From: Acidobacteriota bacterium
GTDB lineage: Bacteria; Acidobacteriota; Vicinamibacteria; Vicinamibacterales; UBA8438
Direction: 5' to 3'
Assembly (NCBI GenBank): GCA_009838525.1
Contig: VXRJ01000035.1
Coordinates: forward strand, 207,475-271,474
Length of the DNA stretch: 64,000 bases
Shown: in pieces, positions 12,595-63,783 of the stretch
Layout: each line of letters opens with the position of its first letter
Numbering within the stretch: position 1 is the first letter of the stretch
Made by a program: the position numbers and the translations under genes
Notes under the pieces: model-generated
What the model was told of the DNA's origin: nothing
Database searches by the model: none
What the model saw: the letters and a program-made list of their open reading frames with translations, nothing else

Positions 12595-13563
12595 ATGGGA
12601 GGAATGGGTCCGGGCGGAACTCCAGAGCGGCTGGCGGCGGCGCTGGTGCTGGCGGCGCTGGTGCTGCTGCCGGCGGCCGCGGCCGATGCCCAGGGCCGCG
12701 GCGGCGACTTCACGCTGTCGTACACGAGCGGTCTGAACGTGTCCCCCGCCTACGAGGGTTGGGAGCGGGATCCGGACGGGCAACGCTACTTCCTCTTCGG
12801 TTACATGAACCACAACTGGGAGGAAGAGATCGTGGTTTCGGCGGGCCCGGACAACGCCATTGAGCCCGGCGGGCCGGATCAGGGGCAGCCGACTCGCTTC
12901 CTGCCGCGGCGCAATCGATTCATCTTTCGCGTTCCGGTGCCGGAGAACTTCACGGTGACGGACGAGATGGTCTGGACGCTGACGACGAACGGCGTGACGG
13001 AGATGGCCTACGCCACGTTGCGCCTCGACTACTTCGTTGACTCGATGGTGCGGGCCTCGGAGCAGGGCGCCATCGGCGCCGGCACCACGAACCCGACGAT
13101 CCGCTCGAACACCGGGCCGACGCTGACGGTCGAAGGCCCGACGGAGCGGCGGATCCGCGTCGGAGAACCGCTGACGCTGGTGGCGCGGGCGACTGACGAC
13201 GGCATACCGGAGTCGCGGCGCCAGCGGTCGGCGAGCCGCCGGCAGTCGGAGCGACTGGATCGGTGGCGTCCGCCCTACCGCGCCACCGTGAGCAGCGAGA
13301 CCGGCTTGCGCGTGTCGTGGTTCGTCTACCGCGGCGCCGGCGAGGTGAGGTTCGATCCCCCGCAGGTGACGGTGTGGGAGGATACGCGGCCGGGGTCACT
13401 CTCACCCTGGTCGCCGCACTGGGTGACGCCCGAGCCGCCGCCGGATAACGGTTGGGTCGCCTCGGTCACCTTCGAGGAACCGGGAGTCTACACCCTTCGA
13501 TGCCGGGCGAGTGACGGTGCGCTCGACGTGGACCGCGACGTAGTCGTCACCGTCGTTCCGTGA
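12595..13563 (+). CDS. Exported protein of unknown function
   Basis: 322 residues, not recognised. A long hydrophobic Ala/Leu-rich signal peptide (about 1-33, AADAQ) precedes a beta-rich mature part. The mature N-terminus (FTLSYTSGLNVSPAYEGWERDPDGQRYFLFGYMNHNWEEE) and a later segment (EPLTLVARATDDG, EPGVYTLRCRASDGALDVDRDV) look Ig/cadherin-like. The gene sits 5 nt after the heme/copper protein and overlaps the next CRTAC1 gene by 4 nt (GTGA), so it is part of that operon and probably contributes to the same periplasmic complex. GTG 12592 is an alternative start. Confidence 0.7.
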   Translation: MGGMGPGGTPERLAAALVLAALVLLPAAAADAQGRGGDFTLSYTSGLNVSPAYEGWERDPDGQRYFLFGYMNHNWEEEIVVSAGPDNAIEPGGPDQGQPTRFLPRRNRFIFRVPVPENFTVTDEMVWTLTTNGVTEMAYATLRLDYFVDSMVRASEQGAIGAGTTNPTIRSNTGPTLTVEGPTERRIRVGEPLTLVARATDDGIPESRRQRSASRRQSERLDRWRPPYRATVSSETGLRVSWFVYRGAGEVRFDPPQVTVWEDTRPGSLSPWSPHWVTPEPPPDNGWVASVTFEEPGVYTLRCRASDGALDVDRDVVVTVVP

Positions 13564-15305
13564 CGGCACGGGCGCGGATCCACGCGCCCGCTCCGGTCTC
13601 CTCCGGACCGCGCGGCGGCCGGAGTCTTAGCCGTGCGGTTGCGTCAGCGTCGGCCGGCGCCGCCTTGGGATTCTGCGCAGCCACCCTTGCGGCCCAGCCA
13701 GGGTCGACTCCCTTCGCCGTCACGTTTGCCGACGCCACGGTGCAGGCCGGCATCGACTTCACGCACGATAACGGCGCAAGTGGGCGTCACCTGTACCCGG
13801 AACTCTTCGGCGGCGGCGTCGCCGTGCTCGATCTGGACGCCGACGACTGGCCGGATCTGCTGTTCGTCAACGGCCGGGGCTGGGGCTCGTCCGCCGACAC
13901 TCGCCACGGGCTGTTCAGGAACAACCGCGATGGAACGTTCCGCGACGTGTTCAGCGGCAGCGGCCTCGATGGCGCCGATGTCTACGGGCTGGGGGCAACC
14001 GTCGCCGACTACGACAACGACGGCTACGACGACGTCTTCCTGACCACCGTCGATGGCGGCCGGCTCTACCGGAACGCCGGCGACGGCACTTTCCTCGACG
14101 TTACACTCGACGCGGGCATCGGGGATGGCCGGTTCGCGGTCAGCGCCGCGTGGCTCGACTACGACCGTGACGGACTGGCCGACCTTTTCGTCGGGAACTA
14201 CGTCGACTGGTCCCCGGACGCCGATACGGGTTGCGGCGATCCTCCGGGCTATTGCGGCCCCGACGCGTACGGACCCGTCGCGCCCACGTTGTACCGAAAC
14301 ACCGGCGGCGGTCGGTTCGAGAACGTCACCGGGGCCGCCGGACTCGACGATCCCACCGACAAGGCGATGGGCGTCGCCGTGCTCGACTACGACGCCGACG
14401 GCTGGCCGGACCTGTTCGTCGGCAGCGACCGCGTACCCGCCAAGCTGTACCGGAACGACGGCGCCGGACGGTTTACCGACGTGGCGCTGCGCTCGGGGGT
14501 CGCGGTGAGCGAGCGCGGGCGGGCGCGCGCGAACATGGGAGTGGACGCTGCCGACTACGACCGGTCCGGAAGGCCGGACATCCTGGTCGGCAACTTCCTC
14601 CACGAGATGCTCGGTCTTTACCGCGCCACCGGGGACGAGTTGTTTGTCGACGCCGCTCCCCGGTCGACGGTGGGCCGGGCCAGCTACCAGTCGGTTACCT
14701 GGGCGGTCTTTTTCCTGGATGTCGACCTCGACGGCTTCCTCGATATCTTCGCCGCCAACGGCGGGACCGATGAATCGCAGGGGATGCTGGATGCGCGGGC
14801 GCGGCTCAGTCAGCCGCCCCTGCTGTTGCGGAACCAGGGTGACGGCACGTTCGACGACGTCAGCGCGGCGGTTGGAGAAGCGTTTGGCCGGCCCGCCATG
14901 GGTCGGGGCGCGGCCTACCTCGATTACGACGGCGACGGCGATCCGGATATCGTGCTCACCGCGTTGAACGGTCCGGCGCGCCTGCTGCGCAACGATGGCG
15001 GCAACCGAAGCAACTGGCTTCGGGTCCGGCTCGCCGGGACACCCTCGAACCGGCTCGGCATCGGAGCCACGGTCCGGATTGCCAGCGCGTCCGGCACGCA
15101 GCGGCGGACGGTTCGTAGCGGATCGAGCTACGCCTCGCAGAGCGAGTTGCCACTCACGTTCGGGATCGGCAGCGATACGGTGGTGGAGTCGCTCGAGGTC
15201 GTCTGGCCTTCCGGCAGTAGCCAACGGTTCACGGATATCGTTCCCAATCGACTGATCGTCATCGACGAGGCGGAGGGCCTGCGGCCGTCAGCGGCGGTCC
15301 CGTGA
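13560..15305 (+). CDS. CRTAC1-family FG-GAP/VCBS protein with ASPIC/UnbV domain (second copy)
   Basis: 581 residues, same architecture as the protein at 7511 but distinct in sequence. The GTG start overlaps the previous stop (GTGA). An N-terminal Arg-rich segment and hydrophobic stretch (about 22-46, ATLAAQ) serve as export signal. FG-GAP repeats (DLDADDWPD, DYDNDGYDD, DYDRDGLAD, DYDADGWPD, DVDLDGFLD, DYDGDGDPD) are followed by an ASPIC/UnbV domain (SNWLRVRLAG, GATVRIAS, SGSSYASQSELPLTFGIG). It is the last gene of the 11102-15305 operon and its 3' end overlaps the convergent gene at 15288 by 18 bp. Confidence 0.85.
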   Translation: MTARARIHAPAPVSSGPRGGRSLSRAVASASAGAALGFCAATLAAQPGSTPFAVTFADATVQAGIDFTHDNGASGRHLYPELFGGGVAVLDLDADDWPDLLFVNGRGWGSSADTRHGLFRNNRDGTFRDVFSGSGLDGADVYGLGATVADYDNDGYDDVFLTTVDGGRLYRNAGDGTFLDVTLDAGIGDGRFAVSAAWLDYDRDGLADLFVGNYVDWSPDADTGCGDPPGYCGPDAYGPVAPTLYRNTGGGRFENVTGAAGLDDPTDKAMGVAVLDYDADGWPDLFVGSDRVPAKLYRNDGAGRFTDVALRSGVAVSERGRARANMGVDAADYDRSGRPDILVGNFLHEMLGLYRATGDELFVDAAPRSTVGRASYQSVTWAVFFLDVDLDGFLDIFAANGGTDESQGMLDARARLSQPPLLLRNQGDGTFDDVSAAVGEAFGRPAMGRGAAYLDYDGDGDPDIVLTALNGPARLLRNDGGNRSNWLRVRLAGTPSNRLGIGATVRIASASGTQRRTVRSGSSYASQSELPLTFGIGSDTVVESLEVVWPSGSSQRFTDIVPNRLIVIDEAEGLRPSAAVP

Positions 15306-26505: not shown

Positions 26506-27705
26506 ATGACTACGCGCCGTCAGGGTCTTGCAGTGTGCTGGTGCATCGCGGCTTCCGTCGCCGCCCTGGTGGGCTGTGGTGTCGAGAAGAGCCGCAATCC
26601 GCTCAGTCCGTCGATTGCCGGCCCCATCGAGGGAGTGGTCATCAGCGCACCGATGCCGGCGACGGCGGGCGGTGGGCTGATCAGGGTGACCGATCAACCG
26701 ATCACGCTTCAATTCAGCGCCGCCACGTCGAACAGCGAACGGCCGTTCTGGTACGAGATTGAGCTCTCTACATCCAACGCGTTCAATATGCTGGTCCACG
26801 CGGCCGACCAGGTGGCGCCGTCCGGCGACTCCACCGAGTCGTACCAGATCCCGCCGCTCGATGCCGAGCAGCAGTACTTCTGGCGGGTCCGGGCGCTCGA
26901 CGGCGCGAACACGGGACCGTATTCGGCGGTAGCCACGTTCGAGGTGTACACGCCGGTCACCGTCGGTCGCCCGGAGCCGGTTTCCCCGGTCGGCGACGCG
27001 CGGGTGGACGGATTGTCGGCCGTGCTTACGGTCCGCAACGCCAGGGTGACCGGGCCGGCGCGTAACGTGCGGTACGAATTCCAGTGGGCGACGGACGCCA
27101 GCTTGTCGCAGGGTCTCGCGACGGCCACAGTGCCGGCCGGCAATGCCAACACGTCCACGACAGTTCGCGGGCTGGAGCATGCGACCCGGTACTACTGGCG
27201 CAGCCGCGCGCTGGCGGACGGCCAGGAGCGGGACCCGATTGCCGGCGCGTGGTCGCAGGCGGCATCGTTCATGACGCAGCCGCGCGTAGTCGTACCGCCT
27301 CCGACGCCTCCTCCGAGGCCGGGGCCGATGACGGCGCCGGGCCTAGGCCAATGTTGTCCACCGCCGAATCGGTTCTCGGTCGTTCAGGCCATTATCGAGG
27401 CGACCGGCAACCTGTATCGAGAGGACATCCAGCAGTTCACAGAGCGGGTGGCGGAATGTCTCGCGGCCGAGGATGGCGACTGGGGGCGTCGATTGAACGA
27501 CTCGGGTGCGGTCGGCAAGGACACGGTCGCGTATCGGACGTCTAAGGGGCGCGGCGATGGCCCGTACAGTATCGACATCATGCGTGGTGCGGAGAGCAGC
27601 GATCCCCATCCGCACTGGACCATCCAGTCGCACGAGGGCATCGAGGGGCGGGTCGGAGGAAGTTGGTTCGCTGTCGATGGCGCCGGCTGCATCCTATCGG
27701 AGTAG
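26506..27705 (+). CDS. Lipoprotein with FnIII-like domains, function unknown
   Basis: 399 residues. Lipoprotein signal with ALVGC lipobox (Cys about residue 24). Two FnIII-like modules (about 40-145 and 155-260) share the motif YxWRVRALDG...GPYSAVATFEV / YYWRSRALADG...SQAASF. A Pro-rich hinge (VVVPPPTPPPRPGP, about 265-278) leads to a ~105-residue C-terminal domain (CCPPPNRFSVVQAIIEATGNLYREDIQQFTERVAECLAAEDGDWGRRLN in pieces) that I do not recognise. Start is set by ATG 26506, with GATAAC 8 nt upstream and a purine-rich GAGGGAGA. The next gene follows after 10 nt and carries a related FnIII-like module. Confidence 0.7.
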   Translation: MTTRRQGLAVCWCIAASVAALVGCGVEKSRNPLSPSIAGPIEGVVISAPMPATAGGGLIRVTDQPITLQFSAATSNSERPFWYEIELSTSNAFNMLVHAADQVAPSGDSTESYQIPPLDAEQQYFWRVRALDGANTGPYSAVATFEVYTPVTVGRPEPVSPVGDARVDGLSAVLTVRNARVTGPARNVRYEFQWATDASLSQGLATATVPAGNANTSTTVRGLEHATRYYWRSRALADGQERDPIAGAWSQAASFMTQPRVVVPPPTPPPRPGPMTAPGLGQCCPPPNRFSVVQAIIEATGNLYREDIQQFTERVAECLAAEDGDWGRRLNDSGAVGKDTVAYRTSKGRGDGPYSIDIMRGAESSDPHPHWTIQSHEGIEGRVGGSWFAVDGAGCILSE

Positions 27706-27715
27706 CGGTCTCCGC

Positions 27716-29584
27716 GTGCCCGCACCGCGAACCGGAGCGTTGGCGCGGTCCATCGCCCTGATGAGTCTCCTCGGGACATTGCTGGCGGCCACGACGGGTC
27801 TGGACGCCCAGGAAACCGTGCTGAAGGCGACCGCTCCGATGCCCTCGGCGCCCCGCGACGGTACCCGGTTCGGCGACGTCCCGCCGTTCGTGACACTGAC
27901 CGCGGAACCCGCGACGAGCATCTTCGTCCCGGCGGTCTTCGACTATCGCTTTGAGGTCTACGCTGGCGGTGCGCCCGTCGTTTCTTCGGTCGTGTCACAG
28001 AGCGACACCCGTGTGTCCTACCGGTTCGCAGGTCCGATGCGAGAAACGACGGTCTACGCCTGGAGGGTGCGCGCCGAGTTCGATGGCGCCGCCGGTCCCT
28101 GGTCAGAAACCTGGACCTTCGAGACCGGCATCCGGGCGGGACCGCAGCTGCGGTTCACGGACGTCACCGGGTCTTCGGGTCTCACGGGGCCGCCACCGAT
28201 TCCCCTCGGCGGACACGGCGCGGCCTTTGCCGACGCGACGGGAGACGGAAGACCCGATCTGTACATCACGGTCAACTTCGACGATCCGGTAGCCGACCAG
28301 TTCTTCGTCAACCAGGGTGGAGGGAGGTTCCTGGAGGCTGGCGTCTCCCGCGGTATCGCCGATTTCGACGCCGGTTCGCACGGCGCGGCCTGGGGCGATC
28401 TCGACAACGACGGTGACTTCGACCTGTTCAATGGAACTACGGGTGGCCGCGCCGGGGCTTCGAACGACATCTATCGGAATGACGGCCTCGGGCGGTTCCG
28501 CGATACGACGCCTTCGGCGATGCAGGACCGGCGCGAGTCCACGCGCGGCGTAGCGCTCTTCGACATGGACCGGGACGGCGACCTTGATGCGTTTGCGGTT
28601 TCCGGCTGGCTCGGTTCCGGAGATCCACCGGGGGAGCGGAACGAGCTGTACCGCAACGACGGCGACATGCGCTTCTCGCCAGTCGATGACGATGCCGCCG
28701 TTGCCGCTCCCGCGGGGCAGGGCGTAACCGACACCGACTTCGACGGGGACGGCGACATCGACCTGATCGCCGCCAATCGCGACGGTGACCTCGTGGTTCT
28801 CAGGAACGGTGGGGACGGATTCACTTTGGTCGATCCGGAGACAATCGGCATCATGCACCGCGCGTACGGCGGCGTGACCACGGCGGACGTCGACAACGAC
28901 GGGGATTTGGACCTGCTGCTCGTCGGTCTCGACGCGGTTGGTGAAACGGTCGGCCACCTCTATCGAAACCTCGGGGGAGGAACCTTCGGCTACCTGCGCG
29001 GTTTCGTGGACATCGACGGTTACATGGGAGCCTTCGCGGATCTCGACCACGACAGCGACGTCGACCTGGTGTTCGCCGGCGACGATGTTGCGTACCTGAA
29101 CGACGGCGCAGGCGTTTTCTCCCCGGGACCGCCGGTGCCGGTGTCGGGCATCAGCGACCCGCGGGCCATCGCGTTCGCCGATATCGACGCCGACGGCGAT
29201 CTCGACTTTGCGGTCGGCGTCAAGCGGAGCCGGAACTGGCTGGTTCGGAATGACCTGGATGTGGGGTACACGAACTGGTTGAAGATCAGTCTCCGATCGG
29301 CCCAGGGACAGGCTGGTGCGTTCGGCGCCAAAGTCGCCGTCTATTCGGGCTCGGGCCGGGAGCGGCTACTGGCGTTTCGGGAGAGCCGAAGCGCGATCGG
29401 ATACCTCGGCCAGGACGATCCCGTGGTTCACGTGGGTCTCGGCCCTCACATGGCGGTCGATGTAGTCGTGACGTTCGTCGACGGCGCCATGCACGTGTTG
29501 TCAGGCGTGCCGTCGAATCAGACCGTCCTGATCGATGGGAGTGCCGCGGCGGGCGCGCCGGTCTTCGTGGAACAGTACCGCTGA
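27716..29584 (+). CDS. FG-GAP/VCBS repeat protein with FnIII-like N-domain and ASPIC/UnbV-like C-end
   Basis: 622 residues from GTG 27716 (ATG 27677 is an alternative that would overlap the previous gene). Signal peptide about 1-31 (TGLDAQE). Residues ~45-135 form one FnIII-like module (VYAWRVRAEFDGAAGPWSETWTFET), closely matching those in the upstream gene. The body has FG-GAP calcium loops (DATGDGRPD, DLDNDGDFD, DMDRDGDLD, DFDGDGDID, DVDNDGDLD, DIDADGDLD), and the end (TNWLKISLRSAQ...GAKVAVYSG...VVVTFVDGAMHVLSG) is ASPIC/UnbV-like. It is the third CRTAC1-type paralogue in this window. Co-transcribed with 26506. Exported; function unknown. Confidence 0.78.
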   Translation: MPAPRTGALARSIALMSLLGTLLAATTGLDAQETVLKATAPMPSAPRDGTRFGDVPPFVTLTAEPATSIFVPAVFDYRFEVYAGGAPVVSSVVSQSDTRVSYRFAGPMRETTVYAWRVRAEFDGAAGPWSETWTFETGIRAGPQLRFTDVTGSSGLTGPPPIPLGGHGAAFADATGDGRPDLYITVNFDDPVADQFFVNQGGGRFLEAGVSRGIADFDAGSHGAAWGDLDNDGDFDLFNGTTGGRAGASNDIYRNDGLGRFRDTTPSAMQDRRESTRGVALFDMDRDGDLDAFAVSGWLGSGDPPGERNELYRNDGDMRFSPVDDDAAVAAPAGQGVTDTDFDGDGDIDLIAANRDGDLVVLRNGGDGFTLVDPETIGIMHRAYGGVTTADVDNDGDLDLLLVGLDAVGETVGHLYRNLGGGTFGYLRGFVDIDGYMGAFADLDHDSDVDLVFAGDDVAYLNDGAGVFSPGPPVPVSGISDPRAIAFADIDADGDLDFAVGVKRSRNWLVRNDLDVGYTNWLKISLRSAQGQAGAFGAKVAVYSGSGRERLLAFRESRSAIGYLGQDDPVVHVGLGPHMAVDVVVTFVDGAMHVLSGVPSNQTVLIDGSAAAGAPVFVEQYR

Positions 29585-37549: not shown

Positions 37550-39109
37550 ATGCTGACCGCCGCGACGATGGACGACGACTCGACGGTGGGGCTCCGCCGC
37601 ATCTTCTTCGCGATCCTGCTTGTCGTCGTTCCTGGGCTGTCGGGTTGCACGGCCCCGACAGAAGAAGTCGCGGCGCCCGAGCCCTCGGCGGTGGAGACCA
37701 TGGCGATGGAGGCGCCGGCGGGGGAGCCGGCGGTGACGGAAGCGCCTGACGCCGAATCCGTGGAGAGTCGATCCGCGCCGCCTGCCGGGGCGCAGCCCCC
37801 TCGCGATACGCTGCACCTGCGGGTCGCCTGGACGCGCGACGTGGGTGACGGCACCGACTTCGTCAGCCTCGGCGACCGTCTGCGGCTGATGACGTACGAC
37901 TCGCTCGACGGCATCGGCGAGCGGTCGCTGCTTCCCGAAACGGCCAGTTTCGCGAAACCGCTCATCGCGCCGTCGGGCGACTCGGTTGTGTTCACGATGC
38001 GGCGCCAGGGCGTCGTTTACGCCATCAACTGGGATGGCTCCGGCCTGCGGCGGGTCGCCGAGGGATTCGGTCTCGACGTCTGGTCCGATCCGACCGACGG
38101 TGTCGAATGGGCCTACGTCGGCGTCGACGAGCGGCCGACGGATCCTCCGTCGTATCCCGCCATTCGCCGCTATCGCCTGGATGATCCGTCGGTCAGTGAG
38201 ACGGTCTGGGATGCGCAGCCGGTCTCCGGTGACAGCTTCCAGTTGTCGGCAGACGGACGGACTGCGGCGGCGCTCCTGCCCTGGCCGTCGGCGGGCGTGA
38301 TCGATTTTGCGGCGGGTACGTGGCGGGAGCTGGGCGAGGGTTGCTGGACGGCCTTTTCTCCCGGCCGGACGCCACTCTGCTGGTTCTTCGACGGCGCCCA
38401 CCGCAACGTGACGGTGGTCAACCTCGACGGCGAGGAGCGCTGGACGATCCCGATGAATGACGACCCTCGTTTCGGCGGCTACGAGGTGTACCACCCGCGC
38501 TGGACCAACGATCCGCGCGCGATCGTGCTGACCGGCCCGTATTCGGTCGGGACGCGCGTCAACAAGATCCGGGCCGGCGGCCGCCAGGTGGAGGTGCATG
38601 TCGGCATCCTGAACGAGTCCATGACGGCCGTGGAGTCCTGGCGGCAGGTGACGGAGAACGATGCCGCCGACTTCTATCCGGATGCGTGGATCGCGCCGGG
38701 TGGGTTGCCGGCCCCGCGGGGCGGCGCCGCGCCGGCGACGGTGGCCGATCGCGCGCCGGACGGCGCCGCGGCCAGCGTGGTCGTTTCGGTGCGCGTCCGC
38801 GAAGACGTTCCGCTGCCGACGCCGCAGTCGATCTCGCCCTACCGCGAGGGGTTGCTGGCCATCGAGTACGACGTGGTGGAAGTGCTCGAAGGCGACCTCG
38901 ACGTGCCGGTTGTCGCGGTTGCGCACTGGGTCATTCGCGATGGGGAGACGCTGGCCGACGCGACGCGGCCGGCTGGAGAGACGTACCGCCTGAACCTCGC
39001 GCAGTACGACGCGCGGCGCGAGCTGGAAGGGAAGCGGCTGGTGATGGGCACGCGGGACCTGACCCTGCCGCTCTTCTACGATACGGAGTCGGGAGCGCCC
39101 GCACCCTGA
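37550..39109 (+). CDS. Lipoprotein with propeller-like body and a C-domain shared with 42429 product
   Basis: 519 residues from ATG 37550 (ATG 37568 also possible). Lipoprotein signal with lipobox LSGC (Cys about 33). After an acidic Pro/Glu/Ala linker (35-85) the body has TolB/WD40-like repeating segments (FAKPLIAPSGDSVVFTMRRQG, VTENDAADFYPDAW) that read like a six-bladed propeller. The C-terminal ~95 residues (SPYREGLLAIEYDVVEVLEGDLDVPVVAVAHWVI...YRLNLAQYDARRELEGKRL) align with the C-terminus of the AlgX-like protein at 42429. It opens the O-acetylation locus, 11 nt ahead of the AlgX-like gene at 39121. Not recognised as a known family. Confidence 0.65.
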   Translation: MLTAATMDDDSTVGLRRIFFAILLVVVPGLSGCTAPTEEVAAPEPSAVETMAMEAPAGEPAVTEAPDAESVESRSAPPAGAQPPRDTLHLRVAWTRDVGDGTDFVSLGDRLRLMTYDSLDGIGERSLLPETASFAKPLIAPSGDSVVFTMRRQGVVYAINWDGSGLRRVAEGFGLDVWSDPTDGVEWAYVGVDERPTDPPSYPAIRRYRLDDPSVSETVWDAQPVSGDSFQLSADGRTAAALLPWPSAGVIDFAAGTWRELGEGCWTAFSPGRTPLCWFFDGAHRNVTVVNLDGEERWTIPMNDDPRFGGYEVYHPRWTNDPRAIVLTGPYSVGTRVNKIRAGGRQVEVHVGILNESMTAVESWRQVTENDAADFYPDAWIAPGGLPAPRGGAAPATVADRAPDGAAASVVVSVRVREDVPLPTPQSISPYREGLLAIEYDVVEVLEGDLDVPVVAVAHWVIRDGETLADATRPAGETYRLNLAQYDARRELEGKRLVMGTRDLTLPLFYDTESGAPAP

Positions 39110-39120
39110 GAGCTACCGTC

Positions 39121-40224
39121 ATGCGCGTGCGATTGTCCGCGAGTCTCACCGCTGCGACGATTGCCGCCGCCACGGCGTGCGCGCCGGCGCCGGCCGAACT
39201 GGGCGACGTCCTTCCACGGTTCCAGGAGACGGCCCGCGCGCTGGCGGCCGGCGCCGACGCGGACGGACGGACGACGGTCTCCGGCCTCGACGGCTGGCTG
39301 TTCTTCGGACCCGAGCTCCGCCACGCCTCGGTCGGTCCCTTCTGGGGGTCGGACGCGGCCGCCGTGAGCCGCGCGCGCGACCCGGAGGCGGCCGATCCAC
39401 TGGCCGCGATACTCGATTTCCGGGCCCAGTTGCGGGAACTGGGCGTGGAGTTGATCGTCATGCCGGTGCCGGCGAAGAGCGTCATCTATCCCGATCAACT
39501 GGCCGCGGAGCTGTCGGACCTGTCGTCGCCGCCACGCCTCGATCCGGACCACGTCGTGTTCTACACGCTGCTGCGCCAGCAGGGCGTGGAGGTGCTCGAC
39601 CTGACGGAGCGCTTCCTCCAGGTGCGGAACCACCCGCGAGGGCCGCTTTACTGCCTTCGTGATAGCCACTGGTCGGGAGTCGGCTGCGCGGTGGCCAGCG
39701 CGCAGCTCGCCGGCGCCCTGCTGTCGCGGTCGTGGTACGGCGCGCCGCCGGGAGACGCACCGCATATTGCGGACTGGCGCCCGGTGACGATCACTGGCGA
39801 TCTCGAGCGCGAGGCGACCGACGGCGTGACCGGCGAGACGCTTCAGATGCGGTCGATCAGCGTCGCGGGCGGGGCGGACGGCGCATCAGGCCCGCGGCCC
39901 GAACCGGATCCGAACAGCCCGGTCGTTCTGCTCGGCGACAGCCACAACCTGGTCTTTCACGCTGGCGATGACATGCACGCGACGGACGGCGGTCTGCCGG
40001 AACAGCTCGCCTTCGAGCTGGGCTTCCCCGTCGACGTGGTCGCCGTTCGGGGTTCCGCGTCAACTGCCGCCCGCGTGAACCTGTTGCGCCGCGCGCAGGC
40101 CGATCCCACCTACTGGGAGCGGAAGCGAATGGTGATCTGGGTCTTTTCGGTGCGCGAGTTCACGGAGGGAGACGGCTGGCCGCTCATTCCGATTCGGCCG
40201 GATCCTCCCGGCGATTCCGGATAA
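39121..40224 (+). CDS. AlgX/AlgJ-like SGNH acetyltransferase protein
   Basis: 367 residues with a lipoprotein-like signal (TACAP, Cys about 20). The core LSGLDGWLFFGPELRH-type start, VIVMPVPAKSVIYPDQL, D181-S-H183-W and G272-D273-S274-H275 carry the Asp/His and Ser of AlgX/AlgJ-type SGNH acetylesterases; note Ser-His adjacent in GDSH. In alginate systems these enzymes complete O-acetylation with AlgI. The gene is 11 nt after the lipoprotein gene. Its 3' end overlaps the convergent acyltransferase gene by 41 bp. Polymer unknown, as no alginate synthase was seen. Confidence 0.75.
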   Translation: MRVRLSASLTAATIAAATACAPAPAELGDVLPRFQETARALAAGADADGRTTVSGLDGWLFFGPELRHASVGPFWGSDAAAVSRARDPEAADPLAAILDFRAQLRELGVELIVMPVPAKSVIYPDQLAAELSDLSSPPRLDPDHVVFYTLLRQQGVEVLDLTERFLQVRNHPRGPLYCLRDSHWSGVGCAVASAQLAGALLSRSWYGAPPGDAPHIADWRPVTITGDLEREATDGVTGETLQMRSISVAGGADGASGPRPEPDPNSPVVLLGDSHNLVFHAGDDMHATDGGLPEQLAFELGFPVDVVAVRGSASTAARVNLLRRAQADPTYWERKRMVIWVFSVREFTEGDGWPLIPIRPDPPGDSG

Positions 40225-40975
40225 CCCGCGCCGGCACGCCGGCCGCGATTGCGTACGGGGCAATCGTCCCGCGCACCACCGCGCCAGCGCCGATGATGGC
40301 ATCACGCCCAACCCTCGCGCCGTCCGAGATGACGACGTGCGCGCCTAGCCAGACGTTGTCGTCCACATCGATTCCCTGCGCGATCCGGGCTTGCTGCAGC
40401 ACCGGAATGTCGGTCCGATCGTGGGCGTGGTCGCCACCTACCAGGTACGTATACGCGGCGACCAGCGCGTGCCGGCCAAGACGCACGCGGCCCCCGGAGA
40501 AGATCTCGCAGTTGAAGCCGATGTTGGCGTGATCGTCGATGACGATGTCACCGTTCTTGCAGCTCAGAATCGTGCCGCGGCCGATGAAGACCCCGCTGCC
40601 GATGTCGATGCCGCGGTTGTTCGTGCCCTTCGCGTCGAGACAGCAGTTGTCGTCGATCACGACGTCGTCGCCAATCCGGATCTTGTGCGGGTGCCGCAGG
40701 ACCACGTTGACGCCGAAGGTCACGTTGCGCCCCACGCGCCCGAGCAGCAACGGATACAGCTTCGACCGGAGCAGCAGTCCGAGGGCTCCCGGCAGCGCGC
40801 TGATCGCAGTGACGATCAGCTCGTACTTCACCAGCGCCCAGAGCCCGGGTCGCCCGACGACCAACGCCGCGTACCGCGCCGCTTTCGATCGCCCGGGCTC
40901 GAACAGCTCCTCCTGAATGTCCGTGATGCCGCCCCCCGATCCGGCGGGGGGGTCGGATTGGTTCCGTGTCGTCAC
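40184..40975 (-). CDS. Hexapeptide-repeat (left-handed beta-helix) acyltransferase
   Basis: 263 residues. About 95 residues N-terminal with a hydrophobic segment (LVKYELIVTAISALPGALGLLLRSKL), then [LIV]-G-x4 hexapeptide repeats (VTFGVNVVLRHPHKIRIGDDVVIDDNC; HANIGFNCEIFSG; DVDDNVWLGAHVVISDGARVGRDAIIGAGAVVRGTIAPYAIAAGVPARVIR). The GVPARVIR end is the usual family C-terminus. Acetyl- or other acyl-transfer to a sugar is likely. GTG start is preceded by TACGCT 11 nt up. It is divergent from the AlgI gene (35-bp gap), so three acylation functions cluster here. Confidence 0.8.
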   Translation of the reverse strand: MTTRNQSDPPAGSGGGITDIQEELFEPGRSKAARYAALVVGRPGLWALVKYELIVTAISALPGALGLLLRSKLYPLLLGRVGRNVTFGVNVVLRHPHKIRIGDDVVIDDNCCLDAKGTNNRGIDIGSGVFIGRGTILSCKNGDIVIDDHANIGFNCEIFSGGRVRLGRHALVAAYTYLVGGDHAHDRTDIPVLQQARIAQGIDVDDNVWLGAHVVISDGARVGRDAIIGAGAVVRGTIAPYAIAAGVPARVIRNRREDPAESE

Positions 40976-40986
40976 AGTTGGCGCAC

Positions 40987-40996
40987 AGCGTACACT
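40987..40996. promoter_or_regulatory. Divergent -10-like boxes between acyltransferase and AlgI genes
   Basis: Plus strand TACACT (40991-40996) is 14 nt from GTG 41011; minus strand TACGCT (40987-40992) is 11 nt from GTG 40975. They overlap in GTAC, giving a compact shared promoter. Both leaders would be only a few nucleotides. Confidence 0.4.
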
Positions 40997-41010
40997 GCAT
41001 CTAGCAGCCC

Positions 41011-42429
41011 GTGGTCTTCAGCTCCCACCTCTTTCTTCTCTATTTCCTGCCCGTCGCCCTGCTCGTCTACCACACCCTGCCGCGCCGCGGCCGCCACCTC
41101 GCCCTCGCGCTCCTCAGCTACACGTTCTACGGCTGGGCCAACCCCCTGTTCGTCGTCCTTTTGCTCGCGTCGACTGTGGTCGACTACGGCTGCGGGCTGG
41201 CGATCGCCGCCTCGGCCCGCGACGCCGCCGGCGCGCGCCGGCGGCGAGCGGCGGTTGCCGTCTCGGTCGTCACGAATCTCTCGCTGCTCGGCTTCTTCAA
41301 GTACTTCAACTTCGGCATTGACACGTTGAACGGCGTCGGCGCCGCTCTCGGCGCGGAGTGGCTCGGTCTCGACACGGCGCTCCGGGTGACGCTGCCGCTC
41401 GGCATCAGCTTCTACACGTTCCAGTCGATGAGCTACACGATCGACGTCGCCCGCGGTCATGCTGCGCCGCTGCGCAATTTCATCGACTTCGCCTGCTACG
41501 TGTCGCTGTTTCCGCAATTGGTGGCGGGGCCGATCATCCGGTTTGCCGAGATAGCCGATCAACTGGTTCAGCGCACGCACACGGCGGCGAAGTTCGCCCG
41601 CGGCGTGGCGTTCGTCAGCCTCGGCCTGGCCAAGAAGGTGCTGCTCGCGAACCCGTGCGGGCGGATCGCCGATCTGGCGTTCGACGCGGGATCCATCGCC
41701 ACCCTTGATGCCTGGCTCGGCCTGGTCGCGTATGCCTTTCAGATCTACTTCGACTTCAGCGGCTACTCCGACATGGCGATCGGCCTCGGACTGATGCTCG
41801 GCTTCGTCTTCCCGAAGAACTTCGACTCGCCGTATCGCGCGGAGTCGATCACCGAGTTCTGGCGCCGGTGGCACCTGTCGCTCTCTTCCTGGTTGCGCGA
41901 CTACCTGTACGTTCCCCTGGGCGGCAGCCGACGCGGGCCGCGGCGCACGTACATCAATCTCGCGATCGTGATGCTGCTGGGCGGCCTTTGGCATGGCGCC
42001 GCCTGGACGTTCGTCTGCTGGGGCGCCCTGCACGGCGGGCTGCTCGCGGCGGAGCGGTGGCGCGGCGGGTCGTTGTACGCGTTCCTGCCGGCGCCGTTGC
42101 GGCGCGGCGCGACCTTCGGCCTGGTGCTGCTGAGTTGGGTGCTGTTCCGGTCCGCGGACCTGGGCGCCGCCGCCGGCTATTTTCGGAGTCTGGCGGGACT
42201 GACGGCGGCAACCGATCAGGCGCGGCTGCTCGGGCAGGCGATCACTGAGCCGTACTCCCTCGTCGCGCTAACCTGCGCCGCCCTCGTCACCTGGGGTGCG
42301 CCGCAGACCTGGGACTGGACGCGCAACCTCACCGGGCCGAAGGCGGCAACCGCCGTCGGCCTGCTGCTCCTGGCCTGGGGCGTGCTCGCCACGCAGGCGC
42401 ACAACCCCTTCATCTACTTCATTTTCTGA
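41011..42429 (+). CDS. MBOAT O-acyltransferase, AlgI/PatA-like
   Basis: 472 residues with about eleven TM helices. Family features: MVFSSHLFLLYFLPVAL start (like AlgI), KYFNFGIDTLN, PLGISFYTFQSMSYTIDV, FPQLVAGPIIRFAEI, GLGLMLGFVFPKNFDSPYRAESITEFWRRWHLSLSSWLRDYLYVPLGG and the catalytic LWHGAAWTFVCWGALHGG with His328 and His341. It moves an acetyl group across the inner membrane to the AlgX/AlgJ-like partners for polymer acetylation. Start GTG by homology and by a -10 box nearby. Overlaps the next gene by 1 nt (TGATG). Confidence 0.9.
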   Translation: MVFSSHLFLLYFLPVALLVYHTLPRRGRHLALALLSYTFYGWANPLFVVLLLASTVVDYGCGLAIAASARDAAGARRRRAAVAVSVVTNLSLLGFFKYFNFGIDTLNGVGAALGAEWLGLDTALRVTLPLGISFYTFQSMSYTIDVARGHAAPLRNFIDFACYVSLFPQLVAGPIIRFAEIADQLVQRTHTAAKFARGVAFVSLGLAKKVLLANPCGRIADLAFDAGSIATLDAWLGLVAYAFQIYFDFSGYSDMAIGLGLMLGFVFPKNFDSPYRAESITEFWRRWHLSLSSWLRDYLYVPLGGSRRGPRRTYINLAIVMLLGGLWHGAAWTFVCWGALHGGLLAAERWRGGSLYAFLPAPLRRGATFGLVLLSWVLFRSADLGAAAGYFRSLAGLTAATDQARLLGQAITEPYSLVALTCAALVTWGAPQTWDWTRNLTGPKAATAVGLLLLAWGVLATQAHNPFIYFIF

Positions 42430-44138
42430 TGGCTGCGACGACCGGAACCGATTTCCATCGCCTGCCGCGCGCCGAACGCGACCGCATCGCACAAGCGCGA
42501 GCCGAAGTGGGAGAGACCTCGGTGACGCCGGCCGTCGCGCGGCTTCTCGTCGCGGCGTTCGTTGCCGCGCTCGCGTTGCCGCACGTTTCCCAATTGCTGG
42601 CAAGTCCAGGCTTCTACCGGGAACTGGGCGGTGGACGTGTGGCGCTCGCGGACCGTCCGCTTGCCGACGGCCTTCCCCTTGCGTCGATCCGCGCCGCCAA
42701 CCGGGCATTGCTGGCGCGCGCGACGGCGATCGAGGATGGTCTGGCGGACGAATCCGTGATCGGCCGGCGCATCCGCCCGATCGTGCAGTCGGCCATGACC
42801 GCCTGGCTCGGCGCGGGCACGGCGCAGGTGGAGATTGGCGATGGCGGCTGGCTCTTCTACCGGCCCGATCTGGATCACGTCACCGGGCCGGGCTTTCTCG
42901 AGCCGCGCGTGCTGCGCCGCCGCGCCGCGGCTGGCGACACCCTCGCCGCGGCGCGGGCGCCCGATCCACGGCCCGCGCTGGCTGCGTTCCAGAGGCAACT
43001 GGCCCAACGGGGGATCCGGCTGATCGTCGCTCCAATCCCGGTGAAGCCGTCCGCCGATCCGGACCGTGTCGGAGGTTCCGCCCGCTTCGCGGCGCCGGTC
43101 GTGCCGAACCGCTCCTGGATGGCGTTCCTGGCCGATCTCGACGCGGCAGGCGTTACGGTCTTCGACGCCTTCACGAGCCTGGCGGAGTTGCGGGTCGAAG
43201 GCGCGGGACCGCTCTACCTGGCGACCGACACGCACTGGCGCCCGGCGACCATGCAGCGTGTCGCCGCCGATCTCGCCCGGTTCATCGAGGCCTCGATCAT
43301 GCTCGCCCCGCGCCGCGACGGGCACGTCACACGCGCCGTCGATGTGACGAACGACGGCGATACGGCGCGTCTGCTGGAACTGGGGCCGCGGCAGGCCCGC
43401 TATCCGCCGGAAACCGTGGCGACCCGGCGGGTGGAAACGGTGTCGGGCGAGCCGTGGCAGCCGTCCCGCAACGCGGAAGTCCTGCTTCTGGGCGACAGTT
43501 TCACGAATGTCTATGCGCTTGACGCGCTCGGTTGGGGGGTCGGGGCCGGCCTGGCGGAACAGCTCGCCGTCGAGCTGGAGCGCCCGGTGGATCGGATCGC
43601 CCAGAACGATCAGGGCGCCCTCGCGCCGCGCCGGCTGTTCGCGGCGGCACTGGCGCGCGAGCCGCAGCGTTTCGCGGAGACACGCGTCGTCGTCTACCAG
43701 TTCGCGGCGCGTGAGCTCTCCCAGGGAGACTGGGCAATCGTGGACCTGCCTCCGGCCGGCCCGGCGCCTGCGCCCGGCACGATCGGTTTCTGGCCCCCCG
43801 TCGCCGCGCGCGCCACCATCGAGGCAACGGTTGCCGCGGCGGGTTTCGTTCCGCGTCCCGGATCCGTGCCGTACCGCGACCACGTCGTCGCGATCCATCT
43901 GAATGCCATCGACGTGATCGACGGCCCGGCGGAGGGCGCCGGACTCGACGCGGTCGTCTACGTCCGCAGCATGATCGACAACGAGCTGACGGAGGCCGCC
44001 TCGTGGCGGCCGGGCGATCGGGTGCGCCTCGCCCTCCAGCCGTGGGCGGACGTCGCGCCGGAGCTCGATGGCATCAATCGCGGCGAGTTGAGCGATCCCG
44101 CCCTGTTGCTCGTCGAGCCCTGGTGGGGCGTGCCGTAG
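42429..44138 (+). CDS. AlgX/AlgJ-like SGNH protein with extra C-terminal domain
   Basis: 569 residues. N-terminal TM anchor (about 33-55), then the AlgX core: WLFYRPDLDHVTGPGF, IRLIVAPIPVKPS, D267-T-H269-W and G355-D356-S357-F with Asp/His and Ser for the catalytic triad, then VVYQFAARELSQGDW. Residues ~480-569 (VPYRDHVVAIHLNAIDVIDG... RVRLALQPWADVAPELDGI) form an added domain that matches the C-terminus of the lipoprotein at 37550. The gene follows algI-like with TGATG overlap, so both act on the same acetyl-transfer step. This is the second AlgX-like enzyme in the locus. Confidence 0.78.
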   Translation: MAATTGTDFHRLPRAERDRIAQARAEVGETSVTPAVARLLVAAFVAALALPHVSQLLASPGFYRELGGGRVALADRPLADGLPLASIRAANRALLARATAIEDGLADESVIGRRIRPIVQSAMTAWLGAGTAQVEIGDGGWLFYRPDLDHVTGPGFLEPRVLRRRAAAGDTLAAARAPDPRPALAAFQRQLAQRGIRLIVAPIPVKPSADPDRVGGSARFAAPVVPNRSWMAFLADLDAAGVTVFDAFTSLAELRVEGAGPLYLATDTHWRPATMQRVAADLARFIEASIMLAPRRDGHVTRAVDVTNDGDTARLLELGPRQARYPPETVATRRVETVSGEPWQPSRNAEVLLLGDSFTNVYALDALGWGVGAGLAEQLAVELERPVDRIAQNDQGALAPRRLFAAALAREPQRFAETRVVVYQFAARELSQGDWAIVDLPPAGPAPAPGTIGFWPPVAARATIEATVAAAGFVPRPGSVPYRDHVVAIHLNAIDVIDGPAEGAGLDAVVYVRSMIDNELTEAASWRPGDRVRLALQPWADVAPELDGINRGELSDPALLLVEPWWGVP

Positions 44139-63374: not shown

Positions 63375-63783
63375 CCGCCGCAGTCGGCCGGGCGACCGCT
63401 GCGCCCGGCGCGGTGCGCCGCGCCGGACGGGGAGGAAAGTCCGAACTCCGCAGGGCAGTGCGCCGGGTAACCCCCGGTCAGGGTGACCTGAAGGAAAGTG
63501 GCACAGAAAACATACCGCCGCCGGCGCTTCCGGGCGCGGGCCGGTAAGGGTGAAAAGGTGCGGTAAGAGCGCACCGCGTTCCCTGCAAGGGGAATGGCAG
63601 GCTAAACCCCGCACGGAGCAAGACCAAATAGGGAGGCGCCCGAGAGCGGCCCGCTCGAAGCCTCCGGGTAGGTTGCTGGATCCCGTCAGCAATGGCGGGG
63701 CTAGAGGAATGGTCGTCACCGCGGCCGGGTGACTCGTCACGCGGGCGCGGTACAGAATTCGGCTTACGGCCGGTCTGCGGCGG
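63375..63783 (+). ncRNA. rnpB: RNase P RNA, bacterial class A
   Basis: About 410 nt. Universal elements appear in order: GAGGAAAGTCCGAACTCC (P4/CR-I), ACAGAAAACATACCGCC, GGTAAGGGTGAAAAGGTGCGGTAAGAGCGCACCG, GAATGGCAGGCTAAACCCC, AGCAAGACCAAATAGGG, CTAGAGGAATGGTCGTC and ACAGAATTCGGCTTA (P4/CR-V). Stem P1 pairs CCGCCGCAG (63375-63383) with CTGCGGCGG (63775-63783), which fixes the ends closely. Trims the 5' leader of tRNA precursors with protein RnpA (not in this window). Confidence 0.95.

Follow-up and report, generated by a model that had tools for sequence, protein, structure and literature searches.

In the alginate system of Pseudomonas (AlgI-AlgJ-AlgF-AlgX), a secreted polymer is acetylated by an MBOAT protein together with two SGNH-like enzymes, one of which is membrane-anchored (PMC4148444, PMC10641220), and an extra non-catalytic part is found on or near these enzymes. 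AlgF has two beta-sandwich domains, which bind AlgJ and AlgX; alginate itself is not bound, and the protein has been proposed to bring both enzymes together (PMC10641220). AlgX itself carries a carbohydrate-binding module (CBM; residues 348-463) directly after its SGNH-like domain (PMC9734138). In the PatA/PatB system, which O-acetylates peptidoglycan, the MBOAT protein has a C-terminal FxYxxF acyl-shuttle motif whose tyrosine carries the acetyl group, and the SGNH partner has an Asp-x-His motif and a catalytic serine (PMC12148441).

The locus described here lies in a stretch of 64,000 nucleotides from an Acidobacteriota genome, the whole of which we refer to as the window. As in the alginate system there is an MBOAT protein, two SGNH-like enzymes of which one is membrane-anchored, and an additional non-catalytic part; unlike the alginate system, this part is a predicted OB module carried both by the anchored enzyme and by a lipoprotein, and none of the locus proteins tested against Pfam matches AlgF. 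The MBOAT motif and the SGNH partner motifs are those of PatA/PatB, although two SGNH enzymes are present rather than one, and OB modules in addition.

A locus with an MBOAT protein and two AlgX-like enzymes

The features of the locus, in window coordinates, are as follows.

37550..39109, + strand: lipoprotein LIP, 519 aa; lipobox LSGC with Cys33, propeller-type body, C-terminal OB module
38762..39091, + strand: OB module of LIP, body type, residues ~405-514 (hhalign, BLASTP, AlphaFold2, fold matches)
38840..38842, + strand: codon of Tyr431 in the PYR motif of the LIP module, the most conserved residue of the family (108/109 modules)
39121..40224, + strand: ALGX1, second AlgX-like (PF16822) enzyme, without OB module; Asp-Ser-His and Gly-Asp-Ser intact
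40184..40975, - strand: hexapeptide-repeat (left-handed beta-helix) acyltransferase, between ALGX1 and MBOAT
41011..42429, + strand: MBOAT (AlgI/PatA/DltB-like) membrane acyltransferase; PF03062 E=3e-34, conserved Trp-His-Gly
42409..42426, + strand: FIYFIF at the MBOAT C-terminus, which fits the FxYxxF acyl-shuttle motif (PMC12148441)
42429..44138, + strand: ALGX2, membrane-anchored AlgX/AlgJ-like enzyme, 569 aa; PF16822 E=6e-28, C-terminal OB module
43227..43235, + strand: Asp-Thr-His (residues 267-269) of the ALGX2 catalytic site, by sequence motif
43491..43499, + strand: Gly-Asp-Ser (residues 355-357) of ALGX2, by sequence motif; Ser357 presumed catalytic
43809..44135, + strand: OB module of ALGX2, enzyme type, residues 461-569 (hhalign, BLASTP, AlphaFold2, fold matches)
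43872..43874, + strand: codon of Tyr482 in the PYR motif of the ALGX2 module

The LIP sequence has a hydrophobic segment along with its lipobox, and ALGX2 has a hydrophobic anchor at its N-terminus (residues ~32-50); from a weak lipobox (ATAC), ALGX1 is possibly a lipoprotein as well. The Asp-x-His and Gly-Asp-Ser motifs are located at residues 181 and 272 in ALGX1 and at 267 and 355 in ALGX2. In a PDB sequence search ALGX2 matches AlgJ (4o8v) at E=2e-4, the match covering residues 188-430 and thus the SGNH part only. LIP itself has no Pfam match, and its propeller-type body is seen only through weak PD40/LpqB-propeller matches of its relatives. The gene for the hexapeptide-repeat acyltransferase stays near the locus in several relatives, and there are glycosyltransferase and sugar genes nearby. 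Elsewhere in the window, near glycan genes, are two large FG-GAP repeat proteins with ASPIC/UnbV domains (13560-15305 and 27506-29584), and an intact class A bacterial RNase P RNA is found at 63380-63782.

The combination of a PF03062 MBOAT protein that retains Trp-His-Gly and ends in FIYFIF with two PF16822 enzymes whose Asp-x-His and Ser motifs are intact is best read as a system that would O-acylate, and most likely acetylate, a polymer. Judging from its sequences, we place the locus, as a variant, among the MBOAT-SGNH systems for polymer O-acetylation represented by alginate AlgI/J/X and PatAB, because the two types of module described below usually share a locus with an MBOAT protein ending in FxYxxF, a motif seen at the MBOAT C-terminus in 52 of the 54 module loci.

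The shared C-terminal module of LIP and ALGX2

A first-pass annotation of this DNA had suggested that LIP and the AlgX-like enzyme end in a common, uncharacterised domain, that their bodies are otherwise unrelated, and that both belong to one acetylation locus. All of this is borne out. By BLASTP the two C-terminal stretches are 31% identical across 77 residues (E=3e-5), and hhalign comparison of 15 lipoprotein-type with 8 enzyme-type domains gives a probability of 94.8 and E=5.2e-8 over 82 columns. The bodies are ALGX/SGNH in ALGX2 and of propeller type in LIP, the latter via the weak matches of relatives, and the two genes lie in a single O-acetylation locus with the MBOAT and both AlgX-like enzymes. 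The profile search that the annotation had proposed finds more than background, as the lipoprotein-type profile alone reaches enzyme-type proteins of other genomes (E=1.8e-4) and the enzyme-type profile alone reaches lipoproteins (E=7e-7); there are also intermediate sequences that score nearly equally with both. The proposed location is right, but the domain is longer than had been noted, spanning residues ~405-514 and 461-569, because its first strand precedes the PYR motif: the true start is about 25 residues earlier, and the proposed end at 43998 truncates the second copy, which continues to 44135. Within the module the PYR tyrosine is near-invariant, as are a proline and a glycine.

In a tblastn search of its own genome the LIP domain has the ALGX2 domain as its sole other match (E=0.126), and a joint profile search of this genome (4.3 Mb, 97% completeness) identifies exactly two sites, the LIP and ALGX2 modules. 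These are homologous copies of one module, a conclusion we hold with high confidence.

The predicted folds, whose comparison had also been proposed, agree in strand order. AlphaFold2 models were built from two alignments sharing no sequence (36 and 15 rows), and both are confident (pLDDT 89.0 and pTM 0.82 for the LIP domain; pLDDT 88.1 and pTM 0.83 for the ALGX2 domain), with an identical strand order predicted to form a small five-stranded OB-like barrel. The structural matches listed for both models are almost all OB folds at Z 5 to 7, including SSB/PriB proteins at Z about 5-6.5, and the best Foldseek match of the LIP domain is the NTR domain of agrin (NtA; probability 0.93, E 0.12). On these models the module belongs to the OB-fold superfamily at the level of fold, and since the Z scores are only 5 to 7 this is a fold assignment and not evidence of function. 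Although strand order and overall fold are those of SSB/PriB and of the NTR domains (agrin NtA, N-TIMP), the module has no sequence similarity to them, lacks the NTR cysteines, and is found in an envelope setting beside an O-acetylation system. None of the 109 modules has four or more cysteines and both window copies have zero, so that membership of the NTR/TIMP family is rejected for want of the disulfide-type pattern. No AlgX, AlgF or CBM chain is among the fold matches listed for the two models, an absence that does not count against any of them; notwithstanding the similar position of the AlgX CBM, the ALGX2 module is a predicted OB barrel without a match to AlgX.

Could two unrelated OB barrels have come to resemble each other by background or convergence? 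OB folds are common, and the structural matches of the two models are weak, with Z values of at most 5.8 and 6.9. Yet each single-type profile detects the other type significantly, intermediate sequences exist, motif positions are shared and the genome's only two copies lie in the window locus, all of which makes this extremely improbable. Chance similarity is rejected on the hhalign score, the two-way profile matches and the intermediate sequences.

Distribution and the two module types

Pfam, NCBIfam and PDB sequence searches of family members give no convincing match, in keeping with the earlier description of the domain as uncharacterised, and no description of the module was found in the open-access literature searched; a family of modules of ~110 residues, borne by secreted or membrane-anchored products of MBOAT-SGNH loci, thus appears undescribed in these libraries and this literature. 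Planctomycete AlgX-like proteins presumably have similar C-termini. AlgF (PF11182) is absent from the Pfam matches of the 30 members scanned at E up to 1; a genome-wide AlgF search, whose control was silent everywhere, carries no information. Plasmid records have no match to the one enzyme-type module searched.

The family spans at least four bacterial phyla, namely Acidobacteriota, Poribacteria, Armatimonadota and one further phylum. A scan of named genomes finds it in Vicinamibacterales, other Acidobacteria records, Poribacteria, one Armatimonadetes record and several 'uncultured bacterium' records, and profile searches find it in 9/297 genomes of the window's phylum, 19/201 of that of the Armatimonadetes record, 30/85 of that of the Poribacteria record and 28/195 of the further phylum. 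A short 'Gammaproteobacteria' contig (L066:2-895) with an acidobacterial-type lipoprotein was probably misassigned in a metagenome bin. Typically the gene for the module protein comes first, followed by those for the MBOAT, ALGX2 (which may or may not bear a module) and ALGX1. Bodies that bear the module are of beta-propeller type (from weak PD40/LpqB matches), propeller-PKD-laminin G, AlgX-like or, in Poribacteria, SGNH-like (from motifs and sub-threshold matches only), and there are also short stand-alone proteins; multiple and stand-alone copies in one genome occur.

In most carriers the module is at the very C-terminus. Poribacteria proteins of about 570-600 aa (L080-L087) have a body-type module in mid-protein, followed by 300 C-terminal residues of SGNH-like appearance (a GDS motif, with DUF1574 and GDSL matches below threshold) and preceded by a weakly PepSY-like N-terminus. 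In a 1657-aa frame (L234:11070-16040), possibly a real fusion, a BlaR1-type M56 peptidase is continuous with propeller, PKD and laminin-G parts, and an OB module forms the C-terminus.

A tree of 109 modules, built on few columns, separates the enzyme-type and most short modules from the body-type ones with support of 97, and Acidobacteriota, Poribacteria and Armatimonadota are present on both sides. The AlgX-borne modules of L220 and L235-L237 are basal on the enzyme side and match both profiles, and that of L221 falls on the body side. Recent duplication within the window locus is ruled out, as the types are split by this well-supported branch with several phyla on each side. In 20 loci that have both types, body-type and enzyme-type distances are correlated over and above what the MBOAT background accounts for (partial r=0.38, p=0.001), which lends modest support to joint evolution of the two types in shared loci, with short sequences adding noise to these distances.

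The enzyme-type module is found together with ALGX1. Among 52 loci, 33 have the module and ALGX1 (the module being fused to ALGX2 or, in 2, adjoining it), 12 have neither, 7 have the module only and 0 have ALGX1 only (Fisher p=2e-7, a value inflated by kinship among loci that were collected via the domain); a tree-based pair test is underpowered and cannot reach significance. A good copy of ALGX1 exists elsewhere in 4/6 module-only genomes searched, and ALGX1 was found in 0/8 module-less genomes searched. The exception is genus g7 (G006, G014), in which ALGX1 adjoins the lipoprotein and the sole ALGX2-like enzyme is elsewhere and module-less.

The module can also be separate from the enzyme. 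In the phylum of the Armatimonadetes record, a gene for a 162-aa enzyme-type module (L238:9317-9802) is located 81 bases 3' of a module-less ALGX2, from which it follows that the module can act in trans; in L226 (8921-9607), of the same phylum, the module is on its own overlapping frame after a module-less ALGX2, possibly through a frameshift. In genome G019, a 78-aa frame before ALGX1 (L250:10025-10258) comprises just the terminal part of an enzyme-type module; the surrounding region lacks an ALGX2 body, and the frame looks like a remnant of a lost ALGX2.

Possible roles of the module

From the PatAB and alginate work, the MBOAT protein would carry acetyl across the membrane on the tyrosine of FIYFIF, anchored ALGX2 would accept it on Ser357, and ALGX2 would then hand it on, with or without ALGX1 as an intermediate, to a glycan of the envelope or the extracellular space. 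The OB module would be non-catalytic and most likely serve in docking. In this model, the ALGX2 module would bring the anchored enzyme to periplasmic partners (ALGX1, the lipoprotein, or both), and the lipoprotein module would attach a body that faces the surface or a glycan to this assembly, a role that we liken to the job proposed for AlgF between AlgJ and AlgX. We favour docking as the main role because the enzyme-type module accompanies ALGX1 and can be encoded on its own, but do so tentatively, at somewhat short of even chances. The lipoprotein-type module is kept in loci where ALGX2 is module-less, and the two copies therefore need not bind each other; obligate pairing is rejected, as the lipoprotein type is still found in loci that lack the enzyme type. 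This retention, the g7 exception and the confounding of the ALGX1 association by kinship all count against docking. The suggestion of the first-pass annotation, that the domain may dock the enzymes on a polymer or complex common to them, is compatible with these observations.

A close rival is that the module binds glycan, replacing the C-terminal CBM of AlgX on ALGX2 and holding a surface protein on the same polymer in the case of the lipoprotein. Its standing comes from the place of the module in the chain, which is that of the AlgX CBM (PMC4148444, PMC9734138), and from the fusion of body-type modules to lectin-like domains, namely laminin-G (concanavalin-like) and PKD, both of which point away from docking; multiple and stand-alone copies, moreover, require no protein partner. 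OB folds often bind oligomers. However, the enzyme-type module tracks ALGX1 and not the enzyme alone, no CBM stood out among the fold matches, and the two types differ strongly in sequence despite a supposed common ligand. We consider glycan binding a serious possibility, only a little less likely than docking. A module at the extreme C-terminus of most carriers could also simply cap its own protein or help it to fold, binding no partner, and OB barrels can be plain structural units, but the short stand-alone proteins, the attachment to unrelated bodies and the retention of near-invariant Tyr, Pro and Gly make this unlikely. It is also conceivable, although very improbable, that the near-invariant tyrosine (Tyr431, Tyr482) carries acetyl between the anchored enzyme and its partner, the OB modules being active parts of a relay; such conservation permits a catalytic idea but by itself gives no support for one. 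If true, this relay would be a second acyl-tyrosine shuttle in bacterial polymer acetylation.

Docking thus remains our preferred reading. The system is of the known MBOAT-SGNH kind. The module family, unmatched in the family libraries searched, recurs in polymer O-acetylation loci of at least four phyla, mostly uncultured; its profile is a means of finding such loci, and it suggests a testable scheme of their organisation where no AlgF-like adaptor is found. The bringing-together of two SGNH enzymes is still being worked out even for alginate, and a separable module, naturally split from its enzyme in one genome, allows a direct test of enzyme assembly.
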